64,000 nucleotides of DNA from Bryobacterales bacterium (lineage in GTDB: Bacteria; Acidobacteriota; Terriglobia; Bryobacterales; Bryobacteraceae), in assembly GCA_025463005.1 (NCBI GenBank), contig JAOAPR010000046.1:1-64000 (forward strand). The letters run 5' to 3'. Shown piece by piece: positions 1,425 through 31,592 of the stretch. Both the position numbers and the translations under genes were made by a program. Position 1 is the stretch's first letter; every line of letters begins with the position of its first letter. The notes under the pieces were generated by a model that saw only the letters and a program-made list of their open reading frames with translations, was not told the DNA's origin and made no database searches.

Positions 1425-2762
1425 TTAGACCTCCGAAATCGTGCCGGTGCTGTCGCCGAACTTTTCGCGCTCCGCCCCCACCTTCTGCAGCAGCGTCAGG
1501 TGGAGATTCGCGATCGGCGTGCGCTCCGGCAGCACGATATGCTGGCCGCCGAGCTTCATCTTGCCGTTGCCGCCGCCAACCACGATGTTCGGCTCCGGAT
1601 AGTTGTTGTGCAAGTCGCTGTTGCTCATGTTCGACCCGTACATGAAGATCGAGTGGTCGAGCAACGTTCCCTGCCCGTCCGGCGTTGCCGCCAGCTTGGC
1701 AAGAAATTCCGCGAACTTCTCCACGTGCCAGCTCTGGATCTTGACCAGCTTGTTGATTCTTTCCAGATCGTTGGCGTGGTGGGATACGGGGTGGAAGGAA
1801 TCCGGAACTCCGATGTGGTTGTAAGTCCGGTTGGTGCCCTCGGCGACCATGATGTAGGAAGCCACGCGGGTAAGATCGGCCTGATAGGCAAGCGCGATCA
1901 GGTCGAACATCAACTTCACCTGCTCGTCGAAGTTATCCTGTTCCCCGACGGGAGCATCGGGAATCTTGAGGGCGGAAAGATCTTTTGCCCCGGCCATCTG
2001 CGTACGCCGCTCGATTTCGCGAACGCTTTCCAGATACCCGTCGAGGACGGCCTTGTCACCGCTTCCGAGTTCGCCCTGGAGCTTCTTCGTGCGGTCGAGG
2101 ATCAGATCGAGGATGCTGTTGGTCTGGTGGCTGATCGACGTACGCTCCTGTGGCGTGTCGCCCTCACCGAACAACTGCAAAAAGATTTTCCGCGGATTGG
2201 CTTCCATGGGCAGAGGCGATTCCGCGTCGCGGAACGACAGAGTCGTATAGGAGCCGCCTCCGCCCGCTGCCACCTGAACGATGGTTTCAGAGGAGACTTC
2301 GAGCGAGGGCAGAGGGGTGTCCTGGCTGATGACCTTCGCGATCACTTGATCGAGAGTCGTCGCCATGTGTGCCTTGGGGCCGCCGGTGTCCGGACGAGTG
2401 GCGCTGAGCCACGTCGCGGGAGTGAACGTATGCACCGAGCCCGCGGTGGCCGCGTTCTCCAGGTTCCCGAAGGACGAAACGTACTTCTTGTACGGCTCGA
2501 GGGAAGAGAGAATCGGGCTGAGCTTGAAATTGGGCCCGGAACCGCTGGGCGTCCATTTATCCATGGCCGGGCCATGCGAGGTGTTGCCCATGATCGCACC
2601 GTGGGGAAGGTAGAAGAAGCCGGTCCGTAGCTTCGGCACTGCGGCAGTTTGAGCAAGAGCCGTGCCGGCAGGCACCATGGCGTCCAGAAACGGCAACCCC
2701 AAGGTCACTCCGGCGCCCTTCAGCACCGTTCTGCGGGAAATATGTTTCTTGGTGATGAACAT
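1425..2762 (-). CDS. DUF1552 family Tat-exported protein
   Basis: About 445 residues. The start at 2762 is preferred over an in-frame ATG 18 bases upstream because it has an AGGAGAG Shine-Dalgarno and opens directly with the twin-arginine signal (ISRRTVLKGAGVTLGLPFLD). The body matches the DUF1552 family by its layout (FFYLPHGAIMG near the start, YGSNMSNSDLHNN and PIANLHLTLLQKVG near the end). The family is common in planctomycetes and acidobacteria. It is nearly always next to a DUF1592/1588/1585 cytochrome protein, as here, 38 bases downstream of one. The biochemical role is unknown; it resembles DUF1501/sulfatase-like secreted proteins. Confidence 0.9.
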   Translation of the reverse strand: MFITKKHISRRTVLKGAGVTLGLPFLDAMVPAGTALAQTAAVPKLRTGFFYLPHGAIMGNTSHGPAMDKWTPSGSGPNFKLSPILSSLEPYKKYVSSFGNLENAATAGSVHTFTPATWLSATRPDTGGPKAHMATTLDQVIAKVISQDTPLPSLEVSSETIVQVAAGGGGSYTTLSFRDAESPLPMEANPRKIFLQLFGEGDTPQERTSISHQTNSILDLILDRTKKLQGELGSGDKAVLDGYLESVREIERRTQMAGAKDLSALKIPDAPVGEQDNFDEQVKLMFDLIALAYQADLTRVASYIMVAEGTNRTYNHIGVPDSFHPVSHHANDLERINKLVKIQSWHVEKFAEFLAKLAATPDGQGTLLDHSIFMYGSNMSNSDLHNNYPEPNIVVGGGNGKMKLGGQHIVLPERTPIANLHLTLLQKVGAEREKFGDSTGTISEV

Positions 2763-2800
2763 GTTCTCTCCTAACCCCAATCGACTACGTAGATGCTCAA

Positions 2801-5248
2801 CTATTTAGAGGCCACTTGCTTCGGAGCGGCGGCTGCCGCACCCTGCTTACGGAACGCGTCGCTATTAACGATTCCTAAAACGATGGAAGACAACTTGTAA
2901 TTATCTTTCGCAGCCCCACGGACGATCGTACGAACCTGAGGCATATCAAAATATTCCAGTTCCCGGTTGACGGCGTACATCATCAACCTCTCCGTTACGG
3001 ACCCGACGAACGCCGCGGGGCGGTCGACCAGTTGCGCCCTGAGTTCCACGACACCATTGATCGGAACTCCGTTCGGCAGCACCGTGCTGGCATCGATCGG
3101 AGCGTTCGCCTGCCGGTCCACGGTCCGGAACGCCCCAACGGCATCGAAATTCTCCAGAGCCAAACCGGTCGGATCGATTACACCGTGGCACTGTCTGCAG
3201 GTTGCGTTATTGCGGTGCTGTTCCAGCCGCGCTCGCACCGTCTTCGGCTGTTCGCCCGCCTTTTGCGACAGGTCCGTTGCGGTGTTTGGCGGAGGAGGCG
3301 TCGGTGGCGTGCCGATCAGCTTGTCGAGCACCCACGCTCCCCGTAATACCGGAGACGTGCGGTCGCCATAAGAAGTCCGCATGAGCACCGCGGCCTTGCC
3401 CAGCAGGCCCCAACGCTCTTTCTCCGCCAGCGTGACTCTGCGGAACTGCGTGCCTGCGATCCCGGAAATACCGTAGTGGCGAGCCACCCTTTCATTCAGA
3501 AACGTATGGTTGGCGGTCAGGAGGTCCATGACGCTCCGGTCTTCCAACAGGATGCTGCCGATGAAAAGCTCCGCTTCCGTCGAAAAATCGCGCCGCAGTT
3601 GATCGGTGAAGCCCGGGAACAACATGGGATCGGGTTTCACGGAATCGAGAGCATCAAGGTTCAGCCACTTCATTGCGAAACTGGTGACCAGGCTGGATGC
3701 CTTGGGATCCGCCAGCATGCGCCGCACCTGCTTTTCGATCGCTGTTTGTCCCGGCGCCCCAGCCTTCGTCAACCCGCCCGAGGCGGCCAGCGTCAGTAGT
3801 TCCTCGTCCGGGCCGGTGTTCCAAAGGAAGAAGGACAGACGCGAAGCCAGCTCCAGATCGGTGAGGGCAAACTCACTGGTTGGAGACGATCCTTTAGGAC
3901 CACGGATGGCCCGATACAGGAAATCCGGGCTGGCGAGTACTGCCGCCAGGATCTGCTCGATTCCCTGATCGAAGCTTCCTCCGCCCTCACGTCCGGCGTT
4001 ATAGAACGGCATGAGGTGGGCCAGGTCTTCGGCGGTCACTGGCCGGCGGAACGCGCGGCGCGCCAAGTTTTCGGTGATCTGTCGGGCGCAGGAGAGTTCC
4101 TCCGCCGGTTTGGGATCGCAGACAAAGATCATCGCGCGGCTGGAAGTTCTCGAAACACCTTTGGGGTCATACGGTCCGGCGATCACAATGCCGTCGACAA
4201 GACGGGGCATCCGCCCGTTGGCCTGCGCGATACTGCCAGTCAGGCCCGAGAAGGGGGCGGGGTTTGCAACATTTTCGTCGGACTCCACATGGGAACGATC
4301 GACGAAGGCCACGACGACGTCGCGTACGCCCGCTTGCACCTGCACGGGAATCTTCGCGAACCGCTCCATGATCTCGGCGCGTCCCGCGGCTGCCTTGCGA
4401 TCTGCGAGGGCCTGATCCGCCGGCCCGCCGATCGGCTTCCGGAACACGACCTTGCCGTCAATCATGATGACAAGAGTGCTCTCGTTCTCTACCGGACCGG
4501 TATACAGGCCCACCCCAAGATCGTTCATGGTGAAGCGATACTCCCCATCGGCGGGAAAATTGTGTTTGAATTTCACGCCTCCGCGCGTGCCCAAAGGCAG
4601 GGGGTCGTCGGGGTTTTGATTGGCCGCGATCGCGTACTTCACATTCGAAACACGAGGATTGGGACTACCGATTGCGAGCTTCGCCACTTGTCGCGCGGCG
4701 GTGATGTACTGACTTAGGAACGCGGGGGACACGCTCAAAGCAGCCGCGATGTTGTCGAAGCCCTGGACCTGAATGTCCTGCGGCAGGACGTCCGTTGCTT
4801 TCACGTCTACACCCACCAAGGCTTTCACCACCGCGGTGTACTCCGTGCGATTCAGACGCTGGACAGGCACATGGCCCGCCTTCGGACCTTTGGCTGGGGT
4901 GTGGAGCGTGTTGTCGAGATCGTTCTCCATCCAGGCCACGAACGCATCTACATCTTTCTGCGGCGGCTGAGGACTGCCCGGCGGCGGCATCAAATGTCCC
5001 CGCAGCTTACGCAGTGCCTTCTCCCAAGTCTGCGCGTCATCCGCCGCGGCTTGGAGGTCCAGGCCGTCCAACGCGAGGCCACCGGTCTTCGCGCGTGTGT
5101 TGTGGCAGCCGACGCAGTAGGTGTTCAACATCGCGCGATGCTGCTCCGTCCCGCCTGCGGAAGGAGTTTGACCTACGGCTCTGTTTTGCAAAATCGCCAG
5201 AGTGGCGATCAGAACCAGGAGAGCACTCGCGTAAATGAAACCCTTCAT
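2801..5248 (-). CDS. Planctomycete-type cytochrome c protein (DUF1587/1592/1588/1585)
   Basis: About 815 residues. The chosen start at 5248 (MKGFIYASALLVL) gives a signal peptide; an in-frame ATG nine bases upstream is the alternative. A first c-type heme site, CVGCH, lies near residue 45 in the PSCyt1-like domain (TGGLALDGLDL follows). The central DUF1587/DUF1592 block contains RLNRTEYTAVVKALVGVDV and ELASRLSFFLWNTGPDEEL. The DUF1588/1585 C-terminus carries a second heme motif CRQCH in TCRQCHGVIDPTGLALENFD. It heads the operon with DUF1552, the MBL-fold protein and the ankyrin protein. It is probably an exported electron-transfer or oxidative enzyme of unknown substrate. Confidence 0.92.
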   Translation of the reverse strand: MKGFIYASALLVLIATLAILQNRAVGQTPSAGGTEQHRAMLNTYCVGCHNTRAKTGGLALDGLDLQAAADDAQTWEKALRKLRGHLMPPPGSPQPPQKDVDAFVAWMENDLDNTLHTPAKGPKAGHVPVQRLNRTEYTAVVKALVGVDVKATDVLPQDIQVQGFDNIAAALSVSPAFLSQYITAARQVAKLAIGSPNPRVSNVKYAIAANQNPDDPLPLGTRGGVKFKHNFPADGEYRFTMNDLGVGLYTGPVENESTLVIMIDGKVVFRKPIGGPADQALADRKAAAGRAEIMERFAKIPVQVQAGVRDVVVAFVDRSHVESDENVANPAPFSGLTGSIAQANGRMPRLVDGIVIAGPYDPKGVSRTSSRAMIFVCDPKPAEELSCARQITENLARRAFRRPVTAEDLAHLMPFYNAGREGGGSFDQGIEQILAAVLASPDFLYRAIRGPKGSSPTSEFALTDLELASRLSFFLWNTGPDEELLTLAASGGLTKAGAPGQTAIEKQVRRMLADPKASSLVTSFAMKWLNLDALDSVKPDPMLFPGFTDQLRRDFSTEAELFIGSILLEDRSVMDLLTANHTFLNERVARHYGISGIAGTQFRRVTLAEKERWGLLGKAAVLMRTSYGDRTSPVLRGAWVLDKLIGTPPTPPPPNTATDLSQKAGEQPKTVRARLEQHRNNATCRQCHGVIDPTGLALENFDAVGAFRTVDRQANAPIDASTVLPNGVPINGVVELRAQLVDRPAAFVGSVTERLMMYAVNRELEYFDMPQVRTIVRGAAKDNYKLSSIVLGIVNSDAFRKQGAAAAAPKQVASK

Positions 5249-20501: not shown

Positions 20502-21848
20502 ATGACGCCAGCAAGAACCAGCAGGTGGCATACCGTTCCGGATCGAGGGGGGCTGCATACACGAGTTGTTCTGCAGCGTGTTGCTCCGCGGACAGCGCGC
20601 GGATTTCTATGGGCAGCAGAAGTGATGATTATCGGCTACTTGGCATTCGGCCGTGGATTCGCGCACCTCGGAGCCGCACCTGTTTATCCTGCCGAACTCT
20701 TTCTCGCTACTTCGTTCTTATTCGGCGGCGCGGCCTGGATTCAGCTTTACTTGCGCGAACTGGCACGCGGGTGGCCCGTGGCCGTCGTGATGACTGCGTT
20801 TTTCGCATGGGGCCTGTTCGAGACCAGCCGAGGCATCTTGGGCGGCTACAGCCTGATCGAAAGCCTTCGAGGCTTGGCGGCTCACTATTACGCGATTTTC
20901 TTCTTCATCGGATGGCAACTCGCCTCCGGCACAAACCCGCAATGGTTTCTGAGGCTCCTGACGCGTGCATCGGCCATTATGACTGCTAGCGGCGTCCTGA
21001 CCGCCGCGCTGTCACACCTGGGCTCAAGTGTTGGACTGATCGCCCTGTTTCTGACTCCGCCGGCGATGCCGGCGTACACCGCTGTCGGTTTGCTGGCCTT
21101 TGCTCCGTACCTGTCCGTGTGGTTTTACCCCTTATTTGGCGGCAGCCTGACGACACTCTTGCTGCATCCAGGCCGAGCCGCCTGGCTCAGCATGTTGATC
21201 GGCGGCGGATTGGTTGTCTACGGATCGGGCAGAGCCCTGATTCGCCGCCTCCTGATCGTCACGATTGGGCTTGTTTTGATGCTTGTAACGATCGGCCCCC
21301 TGCTCCCGGTGATGGAAGGCAGGGGTGGAAATCTTTCGCCCCGATGGCTGATGGCCAGGATGGTCACGCTGGTGGATTCGGACATCGCTGAACAAATCAT
21401 CGCCACAGAAGGAAGCGCCGCGGACGTATCGAAAATTCGTTCGATCTCCGGCACTAAAGAGTGGCGAAAGCGATTCTGGAGCGCCACCTTAGATTCCCTG
21501 GAGGCCGAGAACCTGTGGCTGACCGGTCACGGCTACGGGTTCTCGCTCGGAACTCTGATTCATGAAGACGTTCGCACGCCTCACAACTTTGCCATCTATC
21601 TGCTCGGCTACACGGGATGCGTGGGGCTCGCCTTGTACGCAGGATTTGTCCTCGCCTTGTTCGCGGCGATGCGCGCCTTACCACGTGGACCGTTCCGGCT
21701 GTTTCTAATCGGTCAACTCGCCACCACATTGATCGTGGCGTCTTTCGGCAATGGACTCGAGACTCCATTTGTTGCCGTGCCCTTCTACCTCGTTATGGGA
21801 CTCGCTTACGGTTTCGCGCGGGCGGGCGCCGGAGCGTCGCATGCGTAA
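20502..21848 (+). CDS. O-antigen ligase/polymerase family membrane protein (Wzy-like)
   Basis: 448 residues with 10-12 hydrophobic segments. A large periplasmic loop around residues 255-345 contains MEGRGGNLSPRWLMARMVT and GHGYGFSLGTLIHEDVRTPHNF, where the late HxxxH-type loop (RTPHNFAIYLLGYTG) is characteristic of the Wzy_C family. It is probably the EPS polymerase. It starts about 200 bases downstream of the beta-helix gene's start, so this intergenic space must carry divergent promoters. The end overlaps the next GT4 gene by 8 bases. Confidence 0.85.
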   Translation: MTPARTSRWHTVPDRGGLHTRVVLQRVAPRTARGFLWAAEVMIIGYLAFGRGFAHLGAAPVYPAELFLATSFLFGGAAWIQLYLRELARGWPVAVVMTAFFAWGLFETSRGILGGYSLIESLRGLAAHYYAIFFFIGWQLASGTNPQWFLRLLTRASAIMTASGVLTAALSHLGSSVGLIALFLTPPAMPAYTAVGLLAFAPYLSVWFYPLFGGSLTTLLLHPGRAAWLSMLIGGGLVVYGSGRALIRRLLIVTIGLVLMLVTIGPLLPVMEGRGGNLSPRWLMARMVTLVDSDIAEQIIATEGSAADVSKIRSISGTKEWRKRFWSATLDSLEAENLWLTGHGYGFSLGTLIHEDVRTPHNFAIYLLGYTGCVGLALYAGFVLALFAAMRALPRGPFRLFLIGQLATTLIVASFGNGLETPFVAVPFYLVMGLAYGFARAGAGASHA

Positions 21849-23007
21849 AATCCTGATCGTGGTGCCGCACCTTTACGGCTCCATGCGCCTGCTGGCGGAC
21901 AACATGCGTTACCTCGATCTGGAGCAGTACCGCATTACGATGCTCGTGTTGGAGCCTGTTCTGACGCTACAGGACGAATTCCCTCCGCAGGTGAAGATCG
22001 TCACGGCAGCCTATACAAAAGCTGGAAAAGCGGGAGCTCGGCTGGGCTATCCAATCGATCGAAGCAAGCTCCGCCGCTGGGCTCACCGCTTCTTTCAGGT
22101 GTGGCGAGAAGCTAAGCGGCACGATCTGGTCATAAGCTGGTCGGAGCTGACCCCGACTTACGTTACGGTGGCAGCCGGCGCGCTCGCGAGAAGGCCGGTG
22201 ATCGGCTGGGTGCATATCCATCTCTCGAGGACTTTCGAGCTTAGGATCCGGCCGCGCTGGGCCCACTCTCCCGCCATTCGGCTGTTCTATCCGATCCTGC
22301 GACGCGTGGTCGGGTGCTCGCGTCCTGTAAGTGATGATCTTCAAACCTCTTTCGGGCTAAAGAACGTTACCTGTATCTCAAATACCGTGGATATCCAGCG
22401 GATTCGCAAGTGCGCTTTAGAGGAGATCGAAGGCGATCTGCGGGAACTCTATTCCCCCTCCACGCCGGTCATCATCAACGTTGCGGCGCTGGAACCGCAA
22501 AAAGGTCAAGAGGTTTTGATACAGGCTCACGCCCTCGTGATCGGCAAGGGTTTGGCACATCGACTTCTCTTGGTCGGCGACGGGACCAGGAGAAAAGAGT
22601 TGGCCGCTCTGGCCAAGGCACTCGACGTCTCAGCCACCGTTCACTTTGCGGGTTTCAGAAAGAACCCGTACACGCTGATCGCTCGTTCCTCGGCATTGGT
22701 GCTCAGCTCGCACATGGAGGGATTCGCTCTTGTGCTCGCCGAAGCCTTGGCTTTGGGCGTTCCCATAGTCTCTACCGACTGTGAAGCGGGTCCGCGTGAG
22801 GTCCTTCAGGACGGGCGTTTTGGCTTGCTCGTGCCCGTGAACGACAAAGAGAAGCTGGCTGCGGCGATGGAGCGGATCCTTACCGAAATCGAACTCAGGG
22901 AGCGGCTTACCCATGAGGCGCAAGGCGATTGCAGCCACATTGACGCTGCCCGTAGCGCGGCCCAAATGGAATCTCTGTTTGAAGAGGCACTGGTGGGAAG
23001 AGCATGA
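21841..23007 (+). CDS. Glycosyltransferase family 4 protein
   Basis: 388 residues from the ATG at 21841, which lies in the last codons of the polymerase gene. Typical GT4 blocks are KILIVVPHLYGSMRLLADN, CISNTVDIQRIRK, LEPQKGQEVLIQA, HFAGFRKNPYTLI and the donor-binding EGFALVLAEALALGVPIVST, which has the E-x7-E motif. It acts in the cytoplasm on the EPS repeat unit. Its stop overlaps the next gene's start (ATGA), so the two GT4 enzymes are co-translated. Confidence 0.92.
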   Translation: MRKILIVVPHLYGSMRLLADNMRYLDLEQYRITMLVLEPVLTLQDEFPPQVKIVTAAYTKAGKAGARLGYPIDRSKLRRWAHRFFQVWREAKRHDLVISWSELTPTYVTVAAGALARRPVIGWVHIHLSRTFELRIRPRWAHSPAIRLFYPILRRVVGCSRPVSDDLQTSFGLKNVTCISNTVDIQRIRKCALEEIEGDLRELYSPSTPVIINVAALEPQKGQEVLIQAHALVIGKGLAHRLLLVGDGTRRKELAALAKALDVSATVHFAGFRKNPYTLIARSSALVLSSHMEGFALVLAEALALGVPIVSTDCEAGPREVLQDGRFGLLVPVNDKEKLAAAMERILTEIELRERLTHEAQGDCSHIDAARSAAQMESLFEEALVGRA

Positions 23008-24278
23008 ACAACCTATATGCAAAAGGCGACGGAATTCTCCTGATCCATAATTCGTACCAGCAGGCCGGCGGCGAGGATCGTGTGTTTGACCTCGAGGTCC
23101 GATTACTGCAAGCGAATGGACATCGCGTCTACCAGTATCAGGACCACAACCGGAGAGTCCCGGGCATGGGTCGCATGGAATTGGTTCTGGGCACGATTTG
23201 GAACAACAGCAGCTATCGCGATGTGACTGCTCTCATCCAAAGGGAACGAATTGGCTTGGTTCATGTACACAACACCTTCCCACTGATTTCTCCTTCGGTA
23301 TATTACGCGGCGCGGAAAGCCGGCGTAGCCGTGGTTCAAACGCTGCACAATTATCGTCTATTGTGTCCGGATGCGAAATTGATGCGGCAGGGGAAAGTAT
23401 GTGAAGACTGTCTGGGCCGCAGCATTCCCTGGCCCGGCGTAGTTCGAGGCTGTTATCAGGGAAGCCGTTGCGCCACCGCCGTGACCGCTGCGATGACGAG
23501 CACACATCGGCTGCTGGGTACTTGGTCCAAATGCATTGACCAGTATGTTGCGCTGACGGAGTTCGCACGGAGCAAGTTCATTGAAGGCGGATTGCCCGCC
23601 GCGAAGATCGCAGTCAAACCGAATTTCATTGACCCGGATCCAGGTTGCGGCCGCCCCGGCGACTACGCGCTGTTTGTCGGACGCCTTTCTCCGGAAAAGG
23701 GCCTCGCGACGCTGATCGAGGCCTGGGACAGGCTGGCAAACCCTATCCCGCTTAGGGTAATTGGCGACGGACCTCTGTCGCCACAAATTCTCGCTGCCGC
23801 GGCGCGCAATCCTCGGATCCAGTGGATGGGGGCGTTGCCGGCATCTGAAGTACGGCGGCAAATGCAGAGCGCACGCTTTCTGGTCTGCCCTTCTATCTGG
23901 TACGAAAGTTTCGGAATGATTATCGTCGAGGCGTTCTCGACCGGGCTGCCTGTAATTGCAAGCAATTTAGGGGCGATGGCAGAGCTGGTGGAGCATGAGC
24001 GAACAGGTCTTCTGTTCACGCCCGGTGACCCCGCGGATCTCGCGCGGATTGTCCAGTTCGCGCTAGATCGTCCTCAGTTGCTGGACTACATGCGCATGCG
24101 AGCCCGTCGTGAATACGAGCAACACTATACGGCATCCACGAACTATCACCTTCTGATGTCAATCTACGAAGATGCGGATCGCCACAACAGCGCCCGAGTT
24201 CGCCCCAACGCCCTGAATGACCTCGCTCTTGAAAGGAACGTATGCAAGCCCCCAATCAATCGACCAGCGCAGTCATGA
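23004..24278 (+). CDS. Glycosyltransferase family 4 protein
   Basis: 424 residues. N-terminal ILLIHNSYQQAGGEDRVFD is typical of a GT4 subgroup common in EPS clusters. A cysteine-containing segment LLCPDAKLMRQGKVCEDCLG near residues 120-138 is also seen in that subgroup. The C-terminal donor domain shows FVGRLSPEKGLATLIEA and PSIWYESFGMIIVEAFSTG with E-x7-E. The 3' end overlaps the start of the RRE/PqqD gene, physically joining the EPS operon to the RiPP cluster. Confidence 0.92.
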   Translation: MNNLYAKGDGILLIHNSYQQAGGEDRVFDLEVRLLQANGHRVYQYQDHNRRVPGMGRMELVLGTIWNNSSYRDVTALIQRERIGLVHVHNTFPLISPSVYYAARKAGVAVVQTLHNYRLLCPDAKLMRQGKVCEDCLGRSIPWPGVVRGCYQGSRCATAVTAAMTSTHRLLGTWSKCIDQYVALTEFARSKFIEGGLPAAKIAVKPNFIDPDPGCGRPGDYALFVGRLSPEKGLATLIEAWDRLANPIPLRVIGDGPLSPQILAAAARNPRIQWMGALPASEVRRQMQSARFLVCPSIWYESFGMIIVEAFSTGLPVIASNLGAMAELVEHERTGLLFTPGDPADLARIVQFALDRPQLLDYMRMRARREYEQHYTASTNYHLLMSIYEDADRHNSARVRPNALNDLALERNVCKPPINRPAQS

Positions 24279-24559
24279 CAATATCTTCGAATGTCACCGT
24301 GAGCCGACGGAGCAACATCGTCTCATGCAATCTAAGCGACGAAACAGTTCTCCTTGATTTGACCTCTGGCATTTACTTCGGGCTGAACCAGGTGGGAGCG
24401 AGTATTTGGGCTCTGATCGCGACACCACGGAGCACCGGCGAACTTCGGGACGAGCTGCTCAAGGAATATGAGATCGATACGGCGGCTTGTGACACGGCTA
24501 TGCTGCAGTTTCTGAATCACCTGGCAGCAAAAGGTCTCATCACCTTACAGGAGAAATGA
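24242..24559 (+). CDS. PqqD-like RRE protein (lasso B1)
   Basis: 105 residues from the ATG at 24242, which has a GAAAGGA ribosome site. An internal ATG at 24275 would give an ATGA overlap with the glycosyltransferase stop and is a possible alternative. The PqqD fold is shown by LSDETVLLDLTSGIYFGLNQVGASIW and then a helical C-terminus. PqqD-type RiPP recognition elements bind the leader of the precursor and deliver it to the B2 protease and the cyclase. The next gene, B2, overlaps it by ATGA. Confidence 0.9.
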   Translation: MQAPNQSTSAVMTISSNVTVSRRSNIVSCNLSDETVLLDLTSGIYFGLNQVGASIWALIATPRSTGELRDELLKEYEIDTAACDTAMLQFLNHLAAKGLITLQEK

Positions 24560-25008
24560 CAGTACGGACTCTCTTGCGTGTCCCCCGAAAGCTTCTCGCA
24601 ATGAGGCATGAGAGGCGGCGTTTACTAGTACAGGCCGCTGTATTGTTGGTAATCGCGAGACTATTGCTGCTGATATTTCCACTGAGGAGAGTGAGGCCGA
24701 TGATGACTGTGGCAGCGCGATGGCTTCCAGGAGTTCAACGGCCGTCGCCACCAGAAGACGTTGTGTGGGCGCTGGCGGCCGTTACCCGGAGGTTCTCCGG
24801 CACATGTCTGGTGAATGCCGTTGCGGCTCACGCTCTACTGCACAAACATGGACATTCATCAACCGTTCGCGTAGGCGCGGCGCGCAAAGAGGGTGCTTTC
24901 GCAGCCCACGCCTGGGTGGAACGGGACGGTGAAATCGTGATGGGTGGACCACAGTCGGTGATCGCGGAATATACACCCTTTCCGCGGTGGGATGACTTCA
25001 CATTATGA
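24556..25008 (+). CDS. Lasso peptide biosynthesis B2 protein (transglutaminase-like leader peptidase)
   Basis: 150 residues. The catalytic set of the family is visible: Cys84 in SGTCLVNAVAAHALL, His118 in FAAHAWVE and Asp124 in VERDGE. The N-terminal hydrophobic stretch (VQAAVLLVIARLLLLIF, about 25-41) may anchor it to the membrane or pack against B1. The family cleaves the leader from the precursor, usually two residues after a conserved Thr. It is coupled by ATGA overlaps to both B1 and the cyclase gene. Confidence 0.92.
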   Translation: MTVRTLLRVPRKLLAMRHERRRLLVQAAVLLVIARLLLLIFPLRRVRPMMTVAARWLPGVQRPSPPEDVVWALAAVTRRFSGTCLVNAVAAHALLHKHGHSSTVRVGAARKEGAFAAHAWVERDGEIVMGGPQSVIAEYTPFPRWDDFTL

Positions 25009-26915
25009 GCGGAATCATCGGCCTGTTTCGCAGAGACGGCGCGCCAGTTGGAAGCGAAATGACCGCGGGCATGCTTGGCGCGATCATGCACCGCGGACCC
25101 GATAATTCCGGAGTGTGGAACAAGGGATCGGCTGGACTGGGTCATTGTATGTTGTGGACGACGCCGGAGTCGCTGAGCGAAATCCTGCCATTCGAAGACA
25201 CCGCTTCGGGCTTGGCGATCACGTGTGATGCGCGAATCGATAATCGTGCCGAATTGATCGAGGGCCTTGGGTTGCAGGCGCGAGTCGGCGAAGTTACAGA
25301 CAGCGCTTTGATCCTGGCTGCGTACGTCAAATGGGGAGTGGAATGTCCCAGCCACTTGATCGGGGATTTTGTATTTGCCATCTTCGACAACAAGAATCAA
25401 CAGATGTTCTGCGCCCGGGATCCGATGGGCGTGAAATGTCTGTACTACTACCTCTCCGACCGTCTGTTTGCGTTCAGCTCCGAAATTAAGGGGCTGACGC
25501 GGCTATCGGAAGTGCCACAGCACCTAAACGAAGTTCGTGTTCTGGATTATCTGGTAAATCTTTTCGACGATCGGACCATCACGTTTTATCAACATATCCT
25601 GCGCCTGCCGCAGGCCACCAGCCTCGTCGTGAGCCGGGACCAGACGCGCGCATCCACGTATTGGTCGTTAGATCCTCATCGCGAGTTGAAGCTCGCATCT
25701 GATGAGGAATACTCGGAGGCGTTCAAGACTTGCTTTGTCGAATCCGTTCGATGCCGGTTGCGCAGCGCTTATCCCGTGGTTTCCGCGTTGAGCGGAGGCC
25801 TGGATTCTTCGTCCATCACATGCGTCGCAAGGCAGCTCTACGATTCCGCCGGAAACCATCAGCCCCTGGATACAGTTTCTCTGATTTTTCCCGGGCTGCC
25901 AAAAGAGGATCTTCGGTACATCGATGAGCGCGAATTCATCGACGCTGTTCTCACGACTGGAAACTACCGGCCGCATTTCGTCCACGCCGATCAACTGACG
26001 CCGCTCCAGGACGTCCGCCAGATTCAATTCCATTTGGATGAAGCATTCTTTGCCGGAAACCTCTACCTGCACTGGGAGATGTATCGCACGACGCACTGCA
26101 ACGGGAGTCGTATCTTTCTGGACGGACTCGACGGGGACACCACCATTTCACATGGGTTTGAATATCTGGCTGACTTGATTCTCAGTTTGCGATGGAAAAC
26201 CCTTCTTCGGGAAGTGCAACTGATCCGTCAGAACCTGGGGATCGGCCGCAAGCGAGTGCTTCGCGACTACTGCATCAAGCCGCTGTGTCCTACCTGGGTT
26301 TATAAAACCTGGGATTGGGCGCATGGCCGCCGCGGGGACACACGGATCACAGGTGAGTTAGTCACGCGGGAATTCAAAGAAAGGCTCGGGCTGACCGAAC
26401 GTGTCAACTCATTTCTCACCAGCAGCCGTTCCTGCACTCGCACAGCCCGCGAAAAGCATTGGGAAATGCTGAATTTCCCGCTGTATGCCCACGCTCTGGA
26501 AATGGCTGACAAGGCGTCCGCCGCATTTCAAGTTGAAGCACGCTATCCCTTTTTCGATCGCCGGTTGATCGAACTGTGCCTTGCCTTGCCTGCTCGTCAA
26601 AAACTCGGTCAAGGATGGAGCCGTTGGATTCTGCGCCGGGCGATGGAAGGTATTCTTCCCAAAGATATACAGTGGAGACCCGCCAAGGGTAACCTGAGTC
26701 CAAATTTCTATCGCAAGCTGATCGAGGGCGACCGTAAGCTCCTGGATGAGACAGTTGAGTCGCAGACGTTGGCTCCCTATTTGGATCTTTCGGCGATCAA
26801 GGCCGCTTATCGGCGGTATGAATCCGCTCCACTACACTCGCATGTCGATTCCTCTCAACTTTTCGCTGCGGCAAATCTGGCCGTATGGCTGGATACCGTT
26901 CGATTGAAAGCTTGA
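25005..26915 (+). CDS. Asparagine-synthetase-like lasso cyclase (C protein)
   Basis: 636 residues: N-terminal class-II glutaminase-like domain and C-terminal Asn-synthase domain. The PP-loop SGGLDSSS lies at residues 263-270, as needed to adenylate a side-chain carboxylate. The protein starts MSGIIGLF, so the catalytic Cys2 of true glutamine-dependent synthetases is Ser. It therefore cannot release ammonia from glutamine in the usual way, which fits the lasso cyclases, where the precursor's own N-terminal amine is the nucleophile. It is overlapped by B2 (ATGA). The precursor gene begins 62 bases after its stop. Confidence 0.92.
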   Translation: MSGIIGLFRRDGAPVGSEMTAGMLGAIMHRGPDNSGVWNKGSAGLGHCMLWTTPESLSEILPFEDTASGLAITCDARIDNRAELIEGLGLQARVGEVTDSALILAAYVKWGVECPSHLIGDFVFAIFDNKNQQMFCARDPMGVKCLYYYLSDRLFAFSSEIKGLTRLSEVPQHLNEVRVLDYLVNLFDDRTITFYQHILRLPQATSLVVSRDQTRASTYWSLDPHRELKLASDEEYSEAFKTCFVESVRCRLRSAYPVVSALSGGLDSSSITCVARQLYDSAGNHQPLDTVSLIFPGLPKEDLRYIDEREFIDAVLTTGNYRPHFVHADQLTPLQDVRQIQFHLDEAFFAGNLYLHWEMYRTTHCNGSRIFLDGLDGDTTISHGFEYLADLILSLRWKTLLREVQLIRQNLGIGRKRVLRDYCIKPLCPTWVYKTWDWAHGRRGDTRITGELVTREFKERLGLTERVNSFLTSSRSCTRTAREKHWEMLNFPLYAHALEMADKASAAFQVEARYPFFDRRLIELCLALPARQKLGQGWSRWILRRAMEGILPKDIQWRPAKGNLSPNFYRKLIEGDRKLLDETVESQTLAPYLDLSAIKAAYRRYESAPLHSHVDSSQLFAAANLAVWLDTVRLKA

Positions 26916-26977
26916 CGTGATGCCCGCCAGTGGCGACGGCGGTCCCCGTCCATTTCAAAAGAAAGGAGGTAGAAAGC

Positions 26978-27118
26978 ATGACCGAGAAAAAGACCTGGTC
27001 CCCACCCACTCTGACCGAGTTTGGAAACGTGGAAGACCTCACCTTGGCAACCAACAAGGTCTTCGGTACTGGCGACGCTTTTACGTTTCAGGGCCAGACC
27101 ACAAGACTCAGCGGATGA
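26978..27118 (+). CDS. Lasso-type RiPP precursor peptide (A)
   Basis: 46 residues from the ATG at 26978, which has a near-perfect AAAGGAGGT ribosome site 8 bases upstream; an upstream in-frame ATG at 26930 lacks one. The leader fits the lasso pattern Y-x2-P-x-L-x3-G-x5-T exactly, with Trp7 for Tyr, then Pro10, Leu12, Gly16 and Thr22. Cleavage two residues after the start of the TL pair would leave a 23-residue core starting ATNKVFGTGD. Its only acidic residue, Asp33, is then at core position 10, not 7-9. If cleavage is after Asn26 or Thr25 the ring would have 7 (Lys1) or 8 (Asn1) residues. The tail ends TTRLSG. Confidence 0.88.
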   Translation: MTEKKTWSPPTLTEFGNVEDLTLATNKVFGTGDAFTFQGQTTRLSG

Positions 27119-27159
27119 TTAGCGGATGTCTCCTCAGGTCCGATAATTCTGGGGAGTTC

Positions 27160-27192
27160 GGCGGGGGAGGACCTTTATGACCCGCCCCCGCC
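27160..27192 (+). promoter_or_regulatory. GC-only hairpin after the precursor gene
   Basis: GGCGGGGG at 27160-27167 pairs perfectly with CCCCCGCC at 27185-27192; after one mismatch, two more G-C pairs close an 11-base loop. It lies 42 bases after the precursor stop and just before the kinase gene. No T-tract follows, so it is more likely an mRNA 3'-end stabiliser or partial attenuator than a full terminator. This is inference from the position. Confidence 0.5.
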
Positions 27193-27203
27193 CAATATAA
27201 ACT

Positions 27204-28169
27204 ATGCACACCTACACTGCTTACGGCCTCCACATCAGTTCGGAAGTGCCGCTCCTTGAATTTCTCGCAGGCGATCCCCTGGGCGACGCCGCAGCGGATG
27301 TACTCGTCCGATACGGCATTGGGGAAGATTGGATCGGGGACGTTACCGACCGGGAATATCATCTCGCAATCGAGCACAGAGAGGCGCGGTTCTGGTTCAA
27401 GGAAGTCGGCGGTTTTGTGGTTCGGGATGGAAAAACTATTGAGCTGATGCCAATTCCGGGGGCGGACGAAAGTTTGATCCGGCTGTACATAGAAGGCATG
27501 GTGATGGCGATGCTCCTCTATCAACGGGGATTTTGTGTACTTCACGCCAGCGTCGTAGATATTGATGGCCATGCAGTCGCATTTCTCGGCCATGTGGGCG
27601 CAGGAAAGTCTTCACTCGCTGCGGCGCTGCAAGCCCGCGGACACGCGGTCATCAGCGACGATAATGCCGCCGTCCGCGTCGCGGCAGGCCAGGCTACCGT
27701 CGAGCCCGCTTATCCCTTCTTGAAGCTCTTTCCGGAAATCGCAAGCTCGCTTGGCTACCGAACTGATCAGCTCCGCGTGCTGCACTCTTCGCAAAAGAAG
27801 GTCGCCGGAGTCGTTGCCGGGAAGTTCGCCGCGAAAGCACGGCGTCTGGAGCGCCTTTACATCCTCGGCCGCGAGCACCCGCCGGAGATTCGGTCTTTAG
27901 GCGCGTCGCAATTGATCCTGGAACTAATCCGCAATTCGGTACCCACGCGCTGGGGTTGCACCGCCGACGGAGACCATTTGCGACGCTGCGGGACCGTCGC
28001 GCAACACGTGAACGCATTCACCGTGAGGACCTTCGATAGGCTCGATTCGCTCCCCGAACTTGCGGAACGCCTGGAGCTGCACTGCACCGCGGGCGATGTG
28101 CTTCGCGATAACATCCCCATTGCCATCAGATCGCATACGCTTGCGATGGGTGACGGAGCTCAGGGGTAA
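27204..28169 (+). CDS. HPr-kinase-like RiPP tailoring kinase
   Basis: 321 residues. The core has HASVVDIDGHAVAFLGHVGAGKSS, with a Walker A loop GHVGAGKSS near residues 131-139, and AVISDDNAAV, the HprK-type acidic motif. It lacks the HPr-binding architecture of true HprK. In lasso clusters such as those for paeninodin and pseudomycoidin, the homologous kinase phosphorylates the C-terminal Ser of the peptide. Here the precursor ends Ser-Gly, so the acceptor would be the penultimate Ser45 or a Thr. Its end abuts the ABC transporter start. Confidence 0.85.
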   Translation: MHTYTAYGLHISSEVPLLEFLAGDPLGDAAADVLVRYGIGEDWIGDVTDREYHLAIEHREARFWFKEVGGFVVRDGKTIELMPIPGADESLIRLYIEGMVMAMLLYQRGFCVLHASVVDIDGHAVAFLGHVGAGKSSLAAALQARGHAVISDDNAAVRVAAGQATVEPAYPFLKLFPEIASSLGYRTDQLRVLHSSQKKVAGVVAGKFAAKARRLERLYILGREHPPEIRSLGASQLILELIRNSVPTRWGCTADGDHLRRCGTVAQHVNAFTVRTFDRLDSLPELAERLELHCTAGDVLRDNIPIAIRSHTLAMGDGAQG

Positions 28170-28173
28170 GAAG

Positions 28174-30003
28174 GTGCCGCTACTTAAGAAGTGGACTGGA
28201 CAAATCCCCTATCTGGTCCGAACCGCGAAACTCATCTGGGTATCTACTCGCGAGTGGAGCATTTTCTGGGCCGCGATTCTGATCGTGCTGGCCGTCCTAC
28301 CCGTCGCCACCGTCGTTTGGATGAAAGCGCTCGTGGACAGCCTCGTGAACGGGCTGCGTGCGGGTACTTCCTGGACCACCATGCAGCCTGCCGTCGTCTA
28401 CGGCAGCCTCATTTTGACTACGTCGCTGATAACCGAGCTCGCCCACAGCACTCTGGAATGGATTCGGGCCATGCAGGCCGAGCTGATTCAGGACTACATC
28501 AGTGCTCGAGTCCATCAGAAATCAGTCGAAGTGGACTTAGCCTTTTACGAATCACCCGATTATTACGACAGCCTTTACCGGGCGCGAGACGACGCAAATA
28601 CGCGGCCCGCACTGTTGTTGGAACATCTGGGCGCCGTGATCCAAAACACCATCACGGTCGTTTTGCTGACCTTACTGATCGTTCGATATTCGCCGTGGAT
28701 GATGCTGGCCATGGCATTCAGCGTGGTGCCGGCATTTTTCGTTGTGGCCCATTACAACTGGCTACAGCATCGCTGGTGGCGCGACACTACCGTCGAGCGG
28801 CGCTGGATCCAATACTACGATCAGAAATTCACGACTGCGGCAGCCGCTCCCGAAATCAGATTGTTCCATCTGGGCCCGTTCTTCCAAGCAGCCTTCGAAG
28901 CGCTCCGAACAAATCTGCGCTCACAACGGCTGCAATTGATCCGCAAGCAGAGCTTGTCCAGAATGATCGCCGCGCTTGCCGGAATGGGCGTGGTTGGAAT
29001 CACACTGGGCTGGATGGGGTGGCGCACGTTTCGGGGTTCAGCCACGCTGGGCGACCTGACGTTGTTCTATCAAGCCATCGTGGGCGGCCAGAGTTTAATG
29101 CGGAGCATCACCGCCAGTCTGACCCAGGTATATGGCAACAGCTTGTTTCTTGGAGAATTCTTTGCGTTTTTAGACCTGAAGCCTAAAATTGTCAGTCCCA
29201 AACAGCCCCTCCCCGGGCCAAGCGTTCTGCGCGAAGGTATCGGGTTCCGAAATGTCACATTCTGCTACCCGGGTAGCGAACGCACCGCTTTGCAGAACTT
29301 CGACCTCGTAGTTCCCGCCGGTAAGATCGTCGCGATCGTGGGGCCCAACGGCGCGGGCAAGAGCACATTGATCAAGCTGTTGTGCCGATTCTATGATCCA
29401 CAGACAGGCAGCATCACCTTCGATGGCCGCGATATCCGGCATTTTTCAATTGACGACTTGAGATCCAGCCTGTCTGTTCTCTTTCAGGTGCCGGTTTCCT
29501 ACGATGCCCCCGTGAGTGACAACATTGCCATCGGTGACGTCACGTCCCCAAGCAGTCCGGAGGCAATCGAGGCCGCCGCACGCAGCGCAGGAGCGCACGA
29601 AATGATCTCGTGTCTGCCGAACGGATACAGCACTCTCCTCGGAAAATCCTTCGCAAACGGAACCGACCTTAGCGGCGGCGAATGGCAGCGCATCGCCATG
29701 GCCCGGGCGTTCTTGCGCGAAGCTCCAGTGATCTTGCTGGATGAGCCCACCAGTTTCATGGATTCGTGGGCAGAGCTCGAATGGTTCGACCATCTACGCG
29801 TGCTCTCCAAAGGCCGGACGACCCTGATGATCACACATCGATTCACAATCGCGATGCGCGCGGACTGGATTCAGGTCATGAAAGACGGCCGGATCATCGA
29901 GTCGGGAACACACGAGATGTTGATACGGCAGGATGGCTTCTACGCGCAGTCCTGGCGAGATCAGATGGAAGCCAGCCAGAGGGCTGTGCCCGTGGGCGTA
30001 TAG
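28174..30003 (+). CDS. ABC transporter, fused permease/ATPase (lasso D exporter)
   Basis: 609 residues from the GTG at 28174 (MPLLKKWTGQIPYLV...), four bases after the kinase stop; earlier in-frame starts lie inside the kinase gene. About six membrane helices are followed by an ATPase with Walker A GPNGAGKSTL, Q-loop FQVPVSYD, signature LSGGEWQR and Walker B PVILLDEPTS, then the H-loop THRF. There is no N-terminal C39 peptidase, as expected when B2 removes the leader. It should export the mature peptide and confer immunity. Confidence 0.92.
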   Translation: MPLLKKWTGQIPYLVRTAKLIWVSTREWSIFWAAILIVLAVLPVATVVWMKALVDSLVNGLRAGTSWTTMQPAVVYGSLILTTSLITELAHSTLEWIRAMQAELIQDYISARVHQKSVEVDLAFYESPDYYDSLYRARDDANTRPALLLEHLGAVIQNTITVVLLTLLIVRYSPWMMLAMAFSVVPAFFVVAHYNWLQHRWWRDTTVERRWIQYYDQKFTTAAAAPEIRLFHLGPFFQAAFEALRTNLRSQRLQLIRKQSLSRMIAALAGMGVVGITLGWMGWRTFRGSATLGDLTLFYQAIVGGQSLMRSITASLTQVYGNSLFLGEFFAFLDLKPKIVSPKQPLPGPSVLREGIGFRNVTFCYPGSERTALQNFDLVVPAGKIVAIVGPNGAGKSTLIKLLCRFYDPQTGSITFDGRDIRHFSIDDLRSSLSVLFQVPVSYDAPVSDNIAIGDVTSPSSPEAIEAAARSAGAHEMISCLPNGYSTLLGKSFANGTDLSGGEWQRIAMARAFLREAPVILLDEPTSFMDSWAELEWFDHLRVLSKGRTTLMITHRFTIAMRADWIQVMKDGRIIESGTHEMLIRQDGFYAQSWRDQMEASQRAVPVGV

Positions 30004-31215
30004 ATGTCACTGAAGGCTATCTACGCAAGAGCCGAAACTGAGTTATTGGTACTCTGCGGGCGTAAGACTTTCGGCAGTCGCGAGGCTTCCTTGGTTGATC
30101 GCACTCTCGAGCGACGTTTGGATTGGACGTTCATCCTTAATGAAGGCGATCGCCATTGCGTTCTGCCATTACTCCACGCCAACCTGGCGTCCTCTGGCTA
30201 CCTGCAGCGAGTTCCTTCGGACGCCAGGCGCGCCCTTCAGGCCGCCGTGCGGCGGATCGCCGGACACAATCTCGCTCTGACCGGAGAATTAATCCGGATT
30301 CTGAACGTTCTGGCCGAGGAGGGTATTCCTGCCATACCGTTCAAAGGTCCGATGGTGGCATTGGCCGCGTATGGCGATTACTCCCAGCGCTGTTTTGCGG
30401 ATCTGGACATATTGGTAGATCAAGTAACTTTGGTCCGTGCCAGAGAGGTTATTGCGAGATCCGGTTATCGGCCCGCCTTGGCCCTGACGCCTCATGAAGA
30501 GCGGGCTTTTTTGAAGAACGAGTGCGCGGTTCAACTGCGCGACAAAAGCCGTGGATTTGTCGTCGAGCTGCACTGGCGATTTAGCGAGCGAAACGCTTCC
30601 GTAGACCTGCCTCTCGAAGACTTCCGTAGGCGCTGCGGCACGATATTGCTCGCGGGCGTCAAGGTCCAAAGCCTTGCTCTAGAAGATCTTCTTCTATACC
30701 TGTGCGTCCATGGAGCGAAGCACTGCTGGGAGCGCCTGGAATGGATTTCGTGTGTGGCCGAAATCGTTGCCCGGCATCCTCAATTGGATTGGACGGCCGT
30801 GAAGGCTCGCGCCAAGGCGTATCGCATCGAAAGGCTTGTACATCTTGGCCTGAACTTGGCTCAATTGCTTTTTTGCGTTTCCGTTCCCGATAACGTGCGA
30901 GCCCGGCTGGAGACGGACCACGCTGTTCTCTCGCTTTCCAACTCGGTCCTGACATGGTTATTCGCGGAGCGCGCCGTCCCGCATTATCACCAGCGGGCCG
31001 CGCGATATCTGTTCATGCTGAAGACCCGGGAGCGGTACGCTGATAAACTCCGGATCATTTGGTTTTCGGCTATCAAGCCTCCTCATCCGGATGCGGAGGA
31101 ATGGATCAACTTGCCTCCCCAGCTTTCGTTTCTGCATCGTATCTTTCGGCCCGTCCGCTTGCTGAGTCAATACGGCGCCGTGGCGTGGCGCCATTATTGC
31201 GGGGGACGGGAGTGA
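30004..31215 (+). CDS. Nucleotidyltransferase-fold protein (NTP_transf_5, lasso N type)
   Basis: 403 residues starting right after the transporter stop. The nucleotidyltransferase core has IPAIPFKGPMVALAAYGD and QRCFADLDILVD (near residues 112-142), where KGP and the D-x-D pair are the family marks. A later segment, GFVVELHWRFSERN, is also typical. In the pseudomycoidin cluster the homolog acts after the kinase and attaches hexose to the phosphorylated tail. Relatives also occur in EPS loci with unknown roles. Together with the kinase it suggests a two-step tail decoration. Confidence 0.85.
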   Translation: MSLKAIYARAETELLVLCGRKTFGSREASLVDRTLERRLDWTFILNEGDRHCVLPLLHANLASSGYLQRVPSDARRALQAAVRRIAGHNLALTGELIRILNVLAEEGIPAIPFKGPMVALAAYGDYSQRCFADLDILVDQVTLVRAREVIARSGYRPALALTPHEERAFLKNECAVQLRDKSRGFVVELHWRFSERNASVDLPLEDFRRRCGTILLAGVKVQSLALEDLLLYLCVHGAKHCWERLEWISCVAEIVARHPQLDWTAVKARAKAYRIERLVHLGLNLAQLLFCVSVPDNVRARLETDHAVLSLSNSVLTWLFAERAVPHYHQRAARYLFMLKTRERYADKLRIIWFSAIKPPHPDAEEWINLPPQLSFLHRIFRPVRLLSQYGAVAWRHYCGGRE

Positions 31216-31592
31216 ACCCGTCAGCGACACGAATGCTTGTTCGCGGACTCGCGTTACTGCTGGCATTGACCTTGTTTTCTCTGCTGCCCGAACCTCTCAA
31301 GGGTCGTTTAGCGACCGCCGGCCTGCTGCACGAATGCACTCACATCGCGGCGTTCGGCATCACTTTCGTCGGCATTGCAATTCGCGTCAAGAGTCTTGCA
31401 GCTTCAGCCGCACTGGCGGTTCTGCTGATCGGATTCGGAGCTGCGCTTGAACTGCTCCAGACCGCAGTATACGGGAACTACCTTGAGTACTGGGATATCC
31501 GTGCCGACGCTGCCGGAGTGGCGCTGGGCATGGCATGCCAGCGGATTGCCTTGGCTATTTCTTCGAAGTCGCGTCCGGCATCTCTCTGCTGA
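31212..31592 (+). CDS. VanZ-like membrane protein
   Basis: 126 residues from the GTG at 31212, which overlaps the previous stop (GTGA). Four membrane helices and the family pattern LLHECTHIAAFGITF and GFGAALELLQTAV are visible; the E-x2-Q in the third helix is typical of VanZ. VanZ-like proteins occur in teicoplanin resistance, EPS and exosortase loci; the molecular role is unsettled. It closes the plus-strand run. Its last 38 bases overlap the convergent cupin gene. Confidence 0.82.
   Translation: MNPSATRMLVRGLALLLALTLFSLLPEPLKGRLATAGLLHECTHIAAFGITFVGIAIRVKSLAASAALAVLLIGFGAALELLQTAVYGNYLEYWDIRADAAGVALGMACQRIALAISSKSRPASLC

Follow-up and report, generated by a model that had tools for sequence, protein, structure and literature searches.

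The peptide precursor encoded at positions 26978 to 27118 of the window (the whole stretch of 64,000 nucleotides that we analyzed) belongs to a cluster that is lasso-type by its genes and by its leader, and the rule-based prediction of its ring fails. Its atypical Asp position is real and recurrent in relatives and not confined to the window; the Asp is part of a K-x-x-[G/S]-x-x-D motif that lies at varying distances from the leader and whose presence follows the relationships of the cyclases. On balance we favor Lys27 and Asp33 as the predicted ring pair, in a subfamily of lasso-type RiPPs, and put forward, more tentatively, closure of the ring through the side chain of Lys27.

The gene cluster and its precursor

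The lasso cluster, together with a VanZ-like gene, occupies positions 24242 to 31592, all on the + strand. The genes for B1 (a PqqD-type RiPP recognition element [RRE]; 24242 to 24559), the lasso leader peptidase B2 (24556 to 25008), and the asparagine-synthetase-like C (the lasso macrolactam synthetase, or cyclase; 25005 to 26915) are mutually adjacent. B1 scores 61.3 bits against Pfam PqqD (cutoff 23.4) and 69.5 bits against NCBIfam lasso_PqqD_Bac (below the cutoff of 80), resembles TbiB1 5v1u (E 2.3e-12), and carries a Tyr within SGIYFGLN. B2 matches NF033537 (82.5 bits, cutoff 33) and Transglut_core3 (68.3 bits, cutoff 26), and the cyclase matches NF033535 lass_lactam_cya (756.7 bits, cutoff 525), its SGGLDSS loop and K561 being invariant in all four rows of the cyclase alignment A1. 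The precursor gene is placed between the cyclase gene and the gene for an HPr-kinase-like protein as found in phosphorylated-lasso clusters (27204 to 28169; HprK_rel_A 38.2 bits, below the cutoff of 200, and Hpr_kinase_C 32.0 bits, just below the cutoff of 33.3), in which the motifs LHAS (113), GAGKS (132), and SDD (151) are present. The remaining genes encode an ABC exporter, D (28174 to 30003; ABC_tran 107.5 bits against 25, the best NCBIfam match being MsbA-like and below cutoff), a nucleotidyltransferase (30004 to 31215; NTP_transf_5 195.4 bits against 31.2), and a VanZ-like small membrane protein (31188 to 31592), named from synteny and a weak Pfam match (17.8 bits, below the cutoff of 30.1); its gene stays beside the nucleotidyltransferase gene at loci L050 and L053 as well. 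Directly upstream on the same strand (20502 to 24278) lie polysaccharide-like ORFs, O-antigen ligase/polymerase-like and two glycosyltransferases as judged from their translations.

The precursor ORF (+ strand, ATG start, 46 residues) is preceded by GGAGG at 26965 to 26969, read as its own ribosome-binding site, and matches NCBIfam lasso_leader_L3 (NF033521) at 21 bits, above the cutoff of 19; homologs were also found. The initial annotation took it for a lasso-type precursor, and the leader residues, this match, and the full lasso cluster bear that out. The leader (residues 1 to 23; 26978 to 27046) has W7, P10, L12, G16, and T22-L23, in agreement with Y/W-xx-P-x-L-xxx-G-(x5)-T in its Trp form; the fit had been called exact, which is slightly too strong, because Trp stands for the Tyr of the motif. 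With the cut after T22-L23 that the Thr(-2) rule prescribes, the core starts ATNKVFGTGDAF... and reads ATNKVFGTGDAFTFQGQTTRLSG. As annotated, Asp at core position 10 is its sole acidic residue, and the standard ring acid (Asp or Glu at core position 7 to 9) is absent. The core can be divided into A24-T25-N26 (27047 to 27055), a segment from the leader Thr-x to Lys27 that is of variable length in relatives (Lys at Thr +2 to +9 in the motif set described below); the motif K27-V-F-G30-T-G-D33 (27056 to 27076), with the proposed ring pair Lys27/Asp33; and a loop and tail (residues 34 to 46; 27077 to 27115) that ends in R-L-S-G, with Ser45 as a candidate phosphorylation site. Residues P10, G16, T22, K27, G30, and D33 are invariant in the 23 rows of the precursor alignment A3, which were chosen by the motif.

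We rejected a chance ORF, given the placement between the cyclase and kinase genes and a precursor 80% identical at the same place in the nearest relative, and dismissed a Pfam EMA match (E 0.25) as chance. That a wrong ORF, a wrong start, or a frameshift has put the Asp at position 10 is extremely improbable: the ribosome-binding site, synteny, and the homolog from another assembly, which is 80% identical and has its Asp spaced alike, all speak against such an artefact, the homologs already contradict it, and nothing was found in its favor.

Collection of relatives

The nearest named relative, L050 (a Bryobacteraceae MAG, JASHRP010000097.1), has a cyclase 77% identical to that of the window, and its precursor occupies the same position in its cluster; this relationship makes an acidobacterium the very probable host. 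When 200 genomes of the family were searched with B2, 35 matched (the window's own genome counted), with no match in the 11 other same-genus genomes listed, and we therefore regard the cluster as patchy; a search of 200 genomes with the precursor matched four, again counting the window's own. Alignment A1 comprises four cyclases, those of the window and of three loci (on the contigs of L052, L053, and L063) that had originally been found via B2 and precursor similarity, and a search of the genome collection with A1 returned 17 cyclase loci. From 15 of these we read 19 precursors, by the leader motif or by place beside the cyclase and with the core disregarded; no precursor was found beside the L060 cyclase and none at L064, where the contig ends. 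In profile searches, matches came from 21 of 347 genomes in the window's phylum, 24 of 386 in the cyanobacterial phylum, 10 of 301 and 14 of 366 in two overlapping Chloroflexota sets, and 5 of 148 in the Desulfogranum phylum; smaller sets were searched as well, and the motif is missing from many of the matches. On plasmids, a search with the cyclase at E 1e-40 returned seven cyclases with identities of no more than 35.8%, and one with the precursor returned no match.

The K-x-x-G-x-x-D spacing occurs in named Acidobacteriota, Cyanobacteriota, Chloroflexota, and Thermodesulfobacteriota records, and one Pseudomonadota record, L065, has the motif spacing plus a canonical Glu7; a single odd peptide was rejected as an explanation, given this recurrence across named records of several phyla. 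Among 19 loci of motif-bearing precursors that were checked, a cyclase gene is present at 17 (L154 has no cyclase gene, and L155, at a contig end, only the kinase), and RRE, B2, cyclase, and kinase genes occur together in records of three named phyla.

Two further groups of precursors came to light. The cyanobacterial L168 (G915:C74; also L117 and L134) has six tandem profile matches, of which five were read as precursors, with one cyclase found beside them, and these five carry C-terminal Cys pairs. L145 (1519 and 1959), L120, and L195 have lasso-leader precursors with a recurrent long tail, D-x-x-F-P-x-G-T...L-T-F-S, which form a separate family.

A motif that slides relative to the leader

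We assembled a motif set of 26 precursors (the window included) with K-x-x-[G/S]-x-x-D; these were picked by the motif, so that the spacing within it is fixed by construction, and only precursors selected through cyclase loci provide a fair test. Among the 20 such precursors (the 19 above plus the window) KxxGxxD is present in 15, where shuffled tails would give 0.24, and each of the remaining five has a canonical acid. When the window and the three seed contigs are left out, the motif is present in 10 of 15 (0.165 expected from shuffles). Not entered in the counts were L121 (motif at +6, a leader with Tyr, and about 30% cyclase identity), the copies L112b, L113a, L109c, and further copies of L117/L134, L102 (not demonstrably beside the L060 cyclase), and precursors with distant or unexamined cyclases such as L069, L070, L142, and L145; L091, L092-L098, and L104 duplicate precursors already in the set.

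Across the 26 precursors of the motif set the leader Thr is always retained, and the motif Lys lies at Thr +2 (three precursors), +3 (one), +4 (two), +5 (ten), +6 (five), +7 (two), +8 (one), or +9 (two). The Asp, always six residues after this Lys, is accordingly offset from the Thr by 8 to 15 residues. In L181 Ser replaces the Gly of the motif, and L113b has a second overlapping match at +7. The annotation had proposed an alignment of close homologs, and this alignment establishes its oddity as a family trait, both the Asp spacing and K-x-x-G-x-x-D recurring in relatives; its longer N-K-x-F-G-x-G-D stretch does not hold as a whole, the Asn and Phe not being conserved. Homologs with Asp or Glu at position 7 to 9 under the same leader rule, which it had named as the observation that would tell against it, do occur, in 7 of the 26 motif-bearing precursors, and 19 have no such acid; among motif-free precursors of related cyclases the proportion is 18 of 20 (Fisher p 2e-5, kinship ignored). 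The two motif-free precursors without such an acid are L111b and L118, whose Asp stands at position 10 by the standard cut. Both are cyanobacterial (L111, 1335 on the - strand; L118, 1513 on the + strand), and L111b adjoins two siblings with Asp9, so that one cyclase may handle 9- and 10-residue rings.

Traits that accompany the motif

Two features outside the motif are linked to it. The first leader position is Trp in 25 of 26 motif precursors versus 1 of 20 motif-free ones, and a Ser stands within the last four residues of all 25 complete motif precursors (L180, cut by a contig end, is excluded) versus 5 of the 20 motif-free.

Presence of the motif also follows the inferred cyclase tree closely. 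In a tree of 34 cyclases a single branch separates the precursor types (SH-aLRT 83; one change, a number as low as in none of 500 shuffles, which averaged 10.7); the long-branched rows L064 (labeled from a precursor on another contig) and L065 are flagged as unsure in this tree, which was built without L152, L171-L174, and the partial or broken cyclases L058_1, L066, and L195. A 35-row tree that includes these partial or broken cyclases and omits L064 and L065 requires two changes of label, the extra one due to L060 (where no neighboring precursor was found), and places 14 motif-free rows in one group (SH-aLRT 98). Our first cyclase tree had four label changes, with distant cyclases included, L058_2 mislabeled as motif type, and L065 mislabeled as 'other'. 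At L058, which has two neighboring cyclases, the partial one groups with L055 and the full one with the motif-free group, each matching its own precursor type. The Lys offset, for its part, changed at least 12 times on the 34-cyclase tree. Comparison of the cyclase groups yielded candidate specificity positions (for example, 360, 503, 517, 519, 605, and 620), from which no mechanism emerged.

A 6.7-kb Chloroflexota contig, L193, has one cyclase and two neighboring precursors (1802 to 4272), with Lys at +5 and +3 and equal Lys-Asp spacing; the first is non-canonical (KxxSxxD), and the other fits Gly1-Asp8 with Lys2.

Codon differences between the window and L050 number 4 synonymous and 1 non-synonymous in residues 27 to 46, and 7 and 7 in leader residues 1 to 23. 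The L050 genome has another precursor, L103, on a different contig; in comparison with it the corresponding figures are 4 and 6, and 10 and 4. The core is thus not better conserved than the leader in every comparison.

Predicted closure of the ring

In the reading that we put first, the RRE and B2 would remove the leader, B2 cutting at its usual place after Leu23; the cyclase would adenylate Asp33, and the side-chain amine of Lys27 would attack the activated Asp33, giving a ring of 26 atoms, with A-T-N left over as a short tail at the N-terminus. Ser45, the candidate site, is the probable target of the kinase, and the ABC protein would export the product (leader removal and kinase action in known systems are covered in PMC10885120 and PMC10368454). 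The simplest assumption is that cutting still occurs after Leu23, given that the leader Thr and a Tyr of the RRE are both kept. A search of 32 loci gave RRE matches at 30 of them, 31 matches in all, and every match but one, a weak second one in L152, has the Tyr of the SGxYxGLN site. In characterized systems the RRE helps to shape the S2 pocket for residue -2, and Tyr33 of FusE is suspected to contact the Thr (PMC10368454, citing Kretsch 2023); we infer from the alignment to TbiB1 that the Tyr of the SGxYxGLN site equals Tyr33 of FusE.

The Lys side chain is put first because a backbone ring would span anywhere from 7 to 14 residues across the subfamily, whereas the side-chain ring is a constant 26 atoms. 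A Glu-closed ring of 8 residues, as in microcin J25, is equally large. Retention of the linker in the product is suggested by the precursors L055 and L058b, in which one linker Cys is matched by one tail Cys, and perhaps in some Chloroflexota a disulfide would tie the N-terminal tail to the C-terminal tail. This pair rests on two related sequences, the argument is weakened by L181 and L192 (a tail Cys without a linker Cys) and by L065 (a Cys at Thr+1 but no tail Cys), and a profile search of additional genome sets for further linker-Cys precursors found none. Closure after the standard cut, with the A-T-N tail kept, is accordingly a tentative proposal within the favored Lys27-Asp33 pairing.

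The same pair would also be joined if cutting or trimming proceeded to Lys27, the product then starting at Lys27 and its backbone amine closing a ring of 7 residues and 22 atoms. By the standard rule L054, L056, and L100 (the last from the named strain Desulfogranum mediterraneum DSM 13871) have Lys at core position 1 and Asp7, the same arrangement without a linker, and because of them Lys27 is favored as the ring partner in the window. The annotation had listed this Lys1/Asp7 option (a cut after Asn26), and we consider it rather doubtful, judging the side-chain form more likely even though the prior for such a form is low. We know of no lasso ring that is closed through a Lys side chain, that starts with Lys, or that has 22 atoms.

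Other rings would leave Lys27 without a part in the closure. With the standard cut after Leu23, the backbone amine of Ala24 and Asp33 would form a true 10-residue macrolactam (31 atoms), Lys27 serving for recognition only; the Thr(-2) rule is then obeyed, and at Thr+2 the 10 precursors with Lys at +5 have Ala or Gly, typical first residues, in seven cases, although Gln in the other three. The strongest case for a real 10-residue ring in the wider family comes from the motif-free L111b and L118, with Asp10, and a fuscanodin/fusilassin analogue with a ten-residue ring has been made in vitro (as reported in PMC8498205). Applied to the 10 relatives whose Lys lies at +6 to +9, however, the same rule demands rings of 11 to 14 residues in all but L065 (which also has Glu7), it leaves the Lys-Asp spacing without a reason, and only rings of 7, 8, and 9 residues are structurally characterized according to a 2026 review (PMC13352647), and so we hold the 10-residue ring to be unlikely. 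A cut after Thr25, the annotation's Asn1/Asp8 option, would instead make Asn26 residue 1 of an 8-residue ring with Asp33 (25 atoms) and place Lys27 at position 2. This ring size is common, Asn1 is known from metanodin (PMC12670498), L192 gives Gly1-Lys2-Asp8 under the standard rule, and lariocidin has Ser1, Lys2, and Asp8 (PMC11451635); but the residue before the Lys is not conserved (Pro, Leu, Arg, Val, and Gln are among those found), the cut would fall directly after the Thr in L054, L056, and L100, and the nearest relatives have Ala, Met, or Lys in place of Thr25. We therefore regard this start, too, as improbable.

Finally, the product may be no lasso at all, but an unthreaded branched macrocycle or a linear phosphopeptide from a cluster that has drifted from lasso chemistry. 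Within the subfamily the acid does lie at very different distances from the predicted cut, and threading may fail in rings of extreme size, small or large. Arguments to the contrary are the cyclase score far above cutoff with the synthetase motifs kept, the recurrence of the RRE, B2, cyclase, and kinase genes together across records of three phyla, and the conservation of residues 27 to 46 relative to L050 (less so relative to L103), and we consider such an outcome quite improbable. The options listed in the annotation (a later cut, a larger ring, or a ring of another type) were the right set, among which sequence alone fixes neither the cut site nor the ring.

Comparison with known systems

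Lasso rings have 7 to 9 residues according to two reviews (PMC13352647 and PMC8498205). Among the closest described models are NF033535 'lass_lactam_cya' and NF033528 'lasso_cyano', with which the window shares the gene set, a cyclase above cutoff, and a weak leader match, and some motif-free cyanobacterial precursors (for example, L119 and L059) share an F-x-F-x-N-G-like tail. Unlike lasso_cyano, the window precursor scores below the cutoff (22.2 bits against 33), has no acid at 7 to 9, and carries KxxGxxD and the leader Trp.

The split B1/B2, the NTP_transf_5 protein, and the ABC transporter are as in phosphorylated lasso clusters (paeninodin and bsf type, with kinase and nucleotidyltransferase), and so are the HprK-like kinase with LHAS, GAGKS, and SDD and the Ser near the C-terminus, phosphorylation being predicted here. 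BsfK targets core Ser3 (as described in PMC10368454), and the window core has no Ser at such a place. The likeness to metanodin lies in soil, an uncultured host, and a non-standard first ring residue, metanodin extending lasso position 1 to Asn; it obeys the Thr(-2) rule, whereas a start at Asn26 in the window precursor would take a shifted cut (metanodin as described in PMC12670498). Lariocidin B likewise has a Lys side chain in an isopeptide bond of a lasso peptide, with Lys2 and Asp8, but this Lys2 bonds the C-terminus as a second ring, the first being Ser1-Asp8 (PMC11451635), while in the window the Lys is proposed for the first ring.

Among the eight cluster proteins of the window scanned with NCBIfam and Pfam there is no ATP-grasp ligase, the enzyme type that makes graspetides. 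Graspetides contain Lys-Asp/Glu side-chain amides. Xanthomonin rings close on Glu7 and have 23 atoms, against 22 for an Asp7 ring in the window. They have 7 residues (by a title in the references of PMC13352647), like the window ring if Lys27 were residue 1. Our search of open-access full texts found, among the matches listed, no description of a K-x-x-[G/S]-x-x-D lasso family or of a lysine-closed lasso ring.

Implications

Lasso precursors are predicted from the Thr(-2) cut together with an acid at position 7 to 9, and a multi-phylum subfamily that breaks this rule would be missed or mispredicted by genome mining. It is possible, if tentative, that a branch of lasso cyclases in four phyla, perhaps a fifth, uses the side chain of an internal Lys (Lys i to Asp i+6, 26 atoms) in place of the N-terminus. 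Such closure might uncouple the ring module from the cleavage site, letting it slide 2 to 9 residues from the Thr and leaving a free N-terminal tail. We know of no smaller lasso ring than the one that would result if Lys27 were instead the first residue. If closure through the Lys side chain is true, the N-terminus would be dispensable for lasso topology, ideas of cyclase chemistry would change, and N-terminally extended or tagged lassos would become possible.
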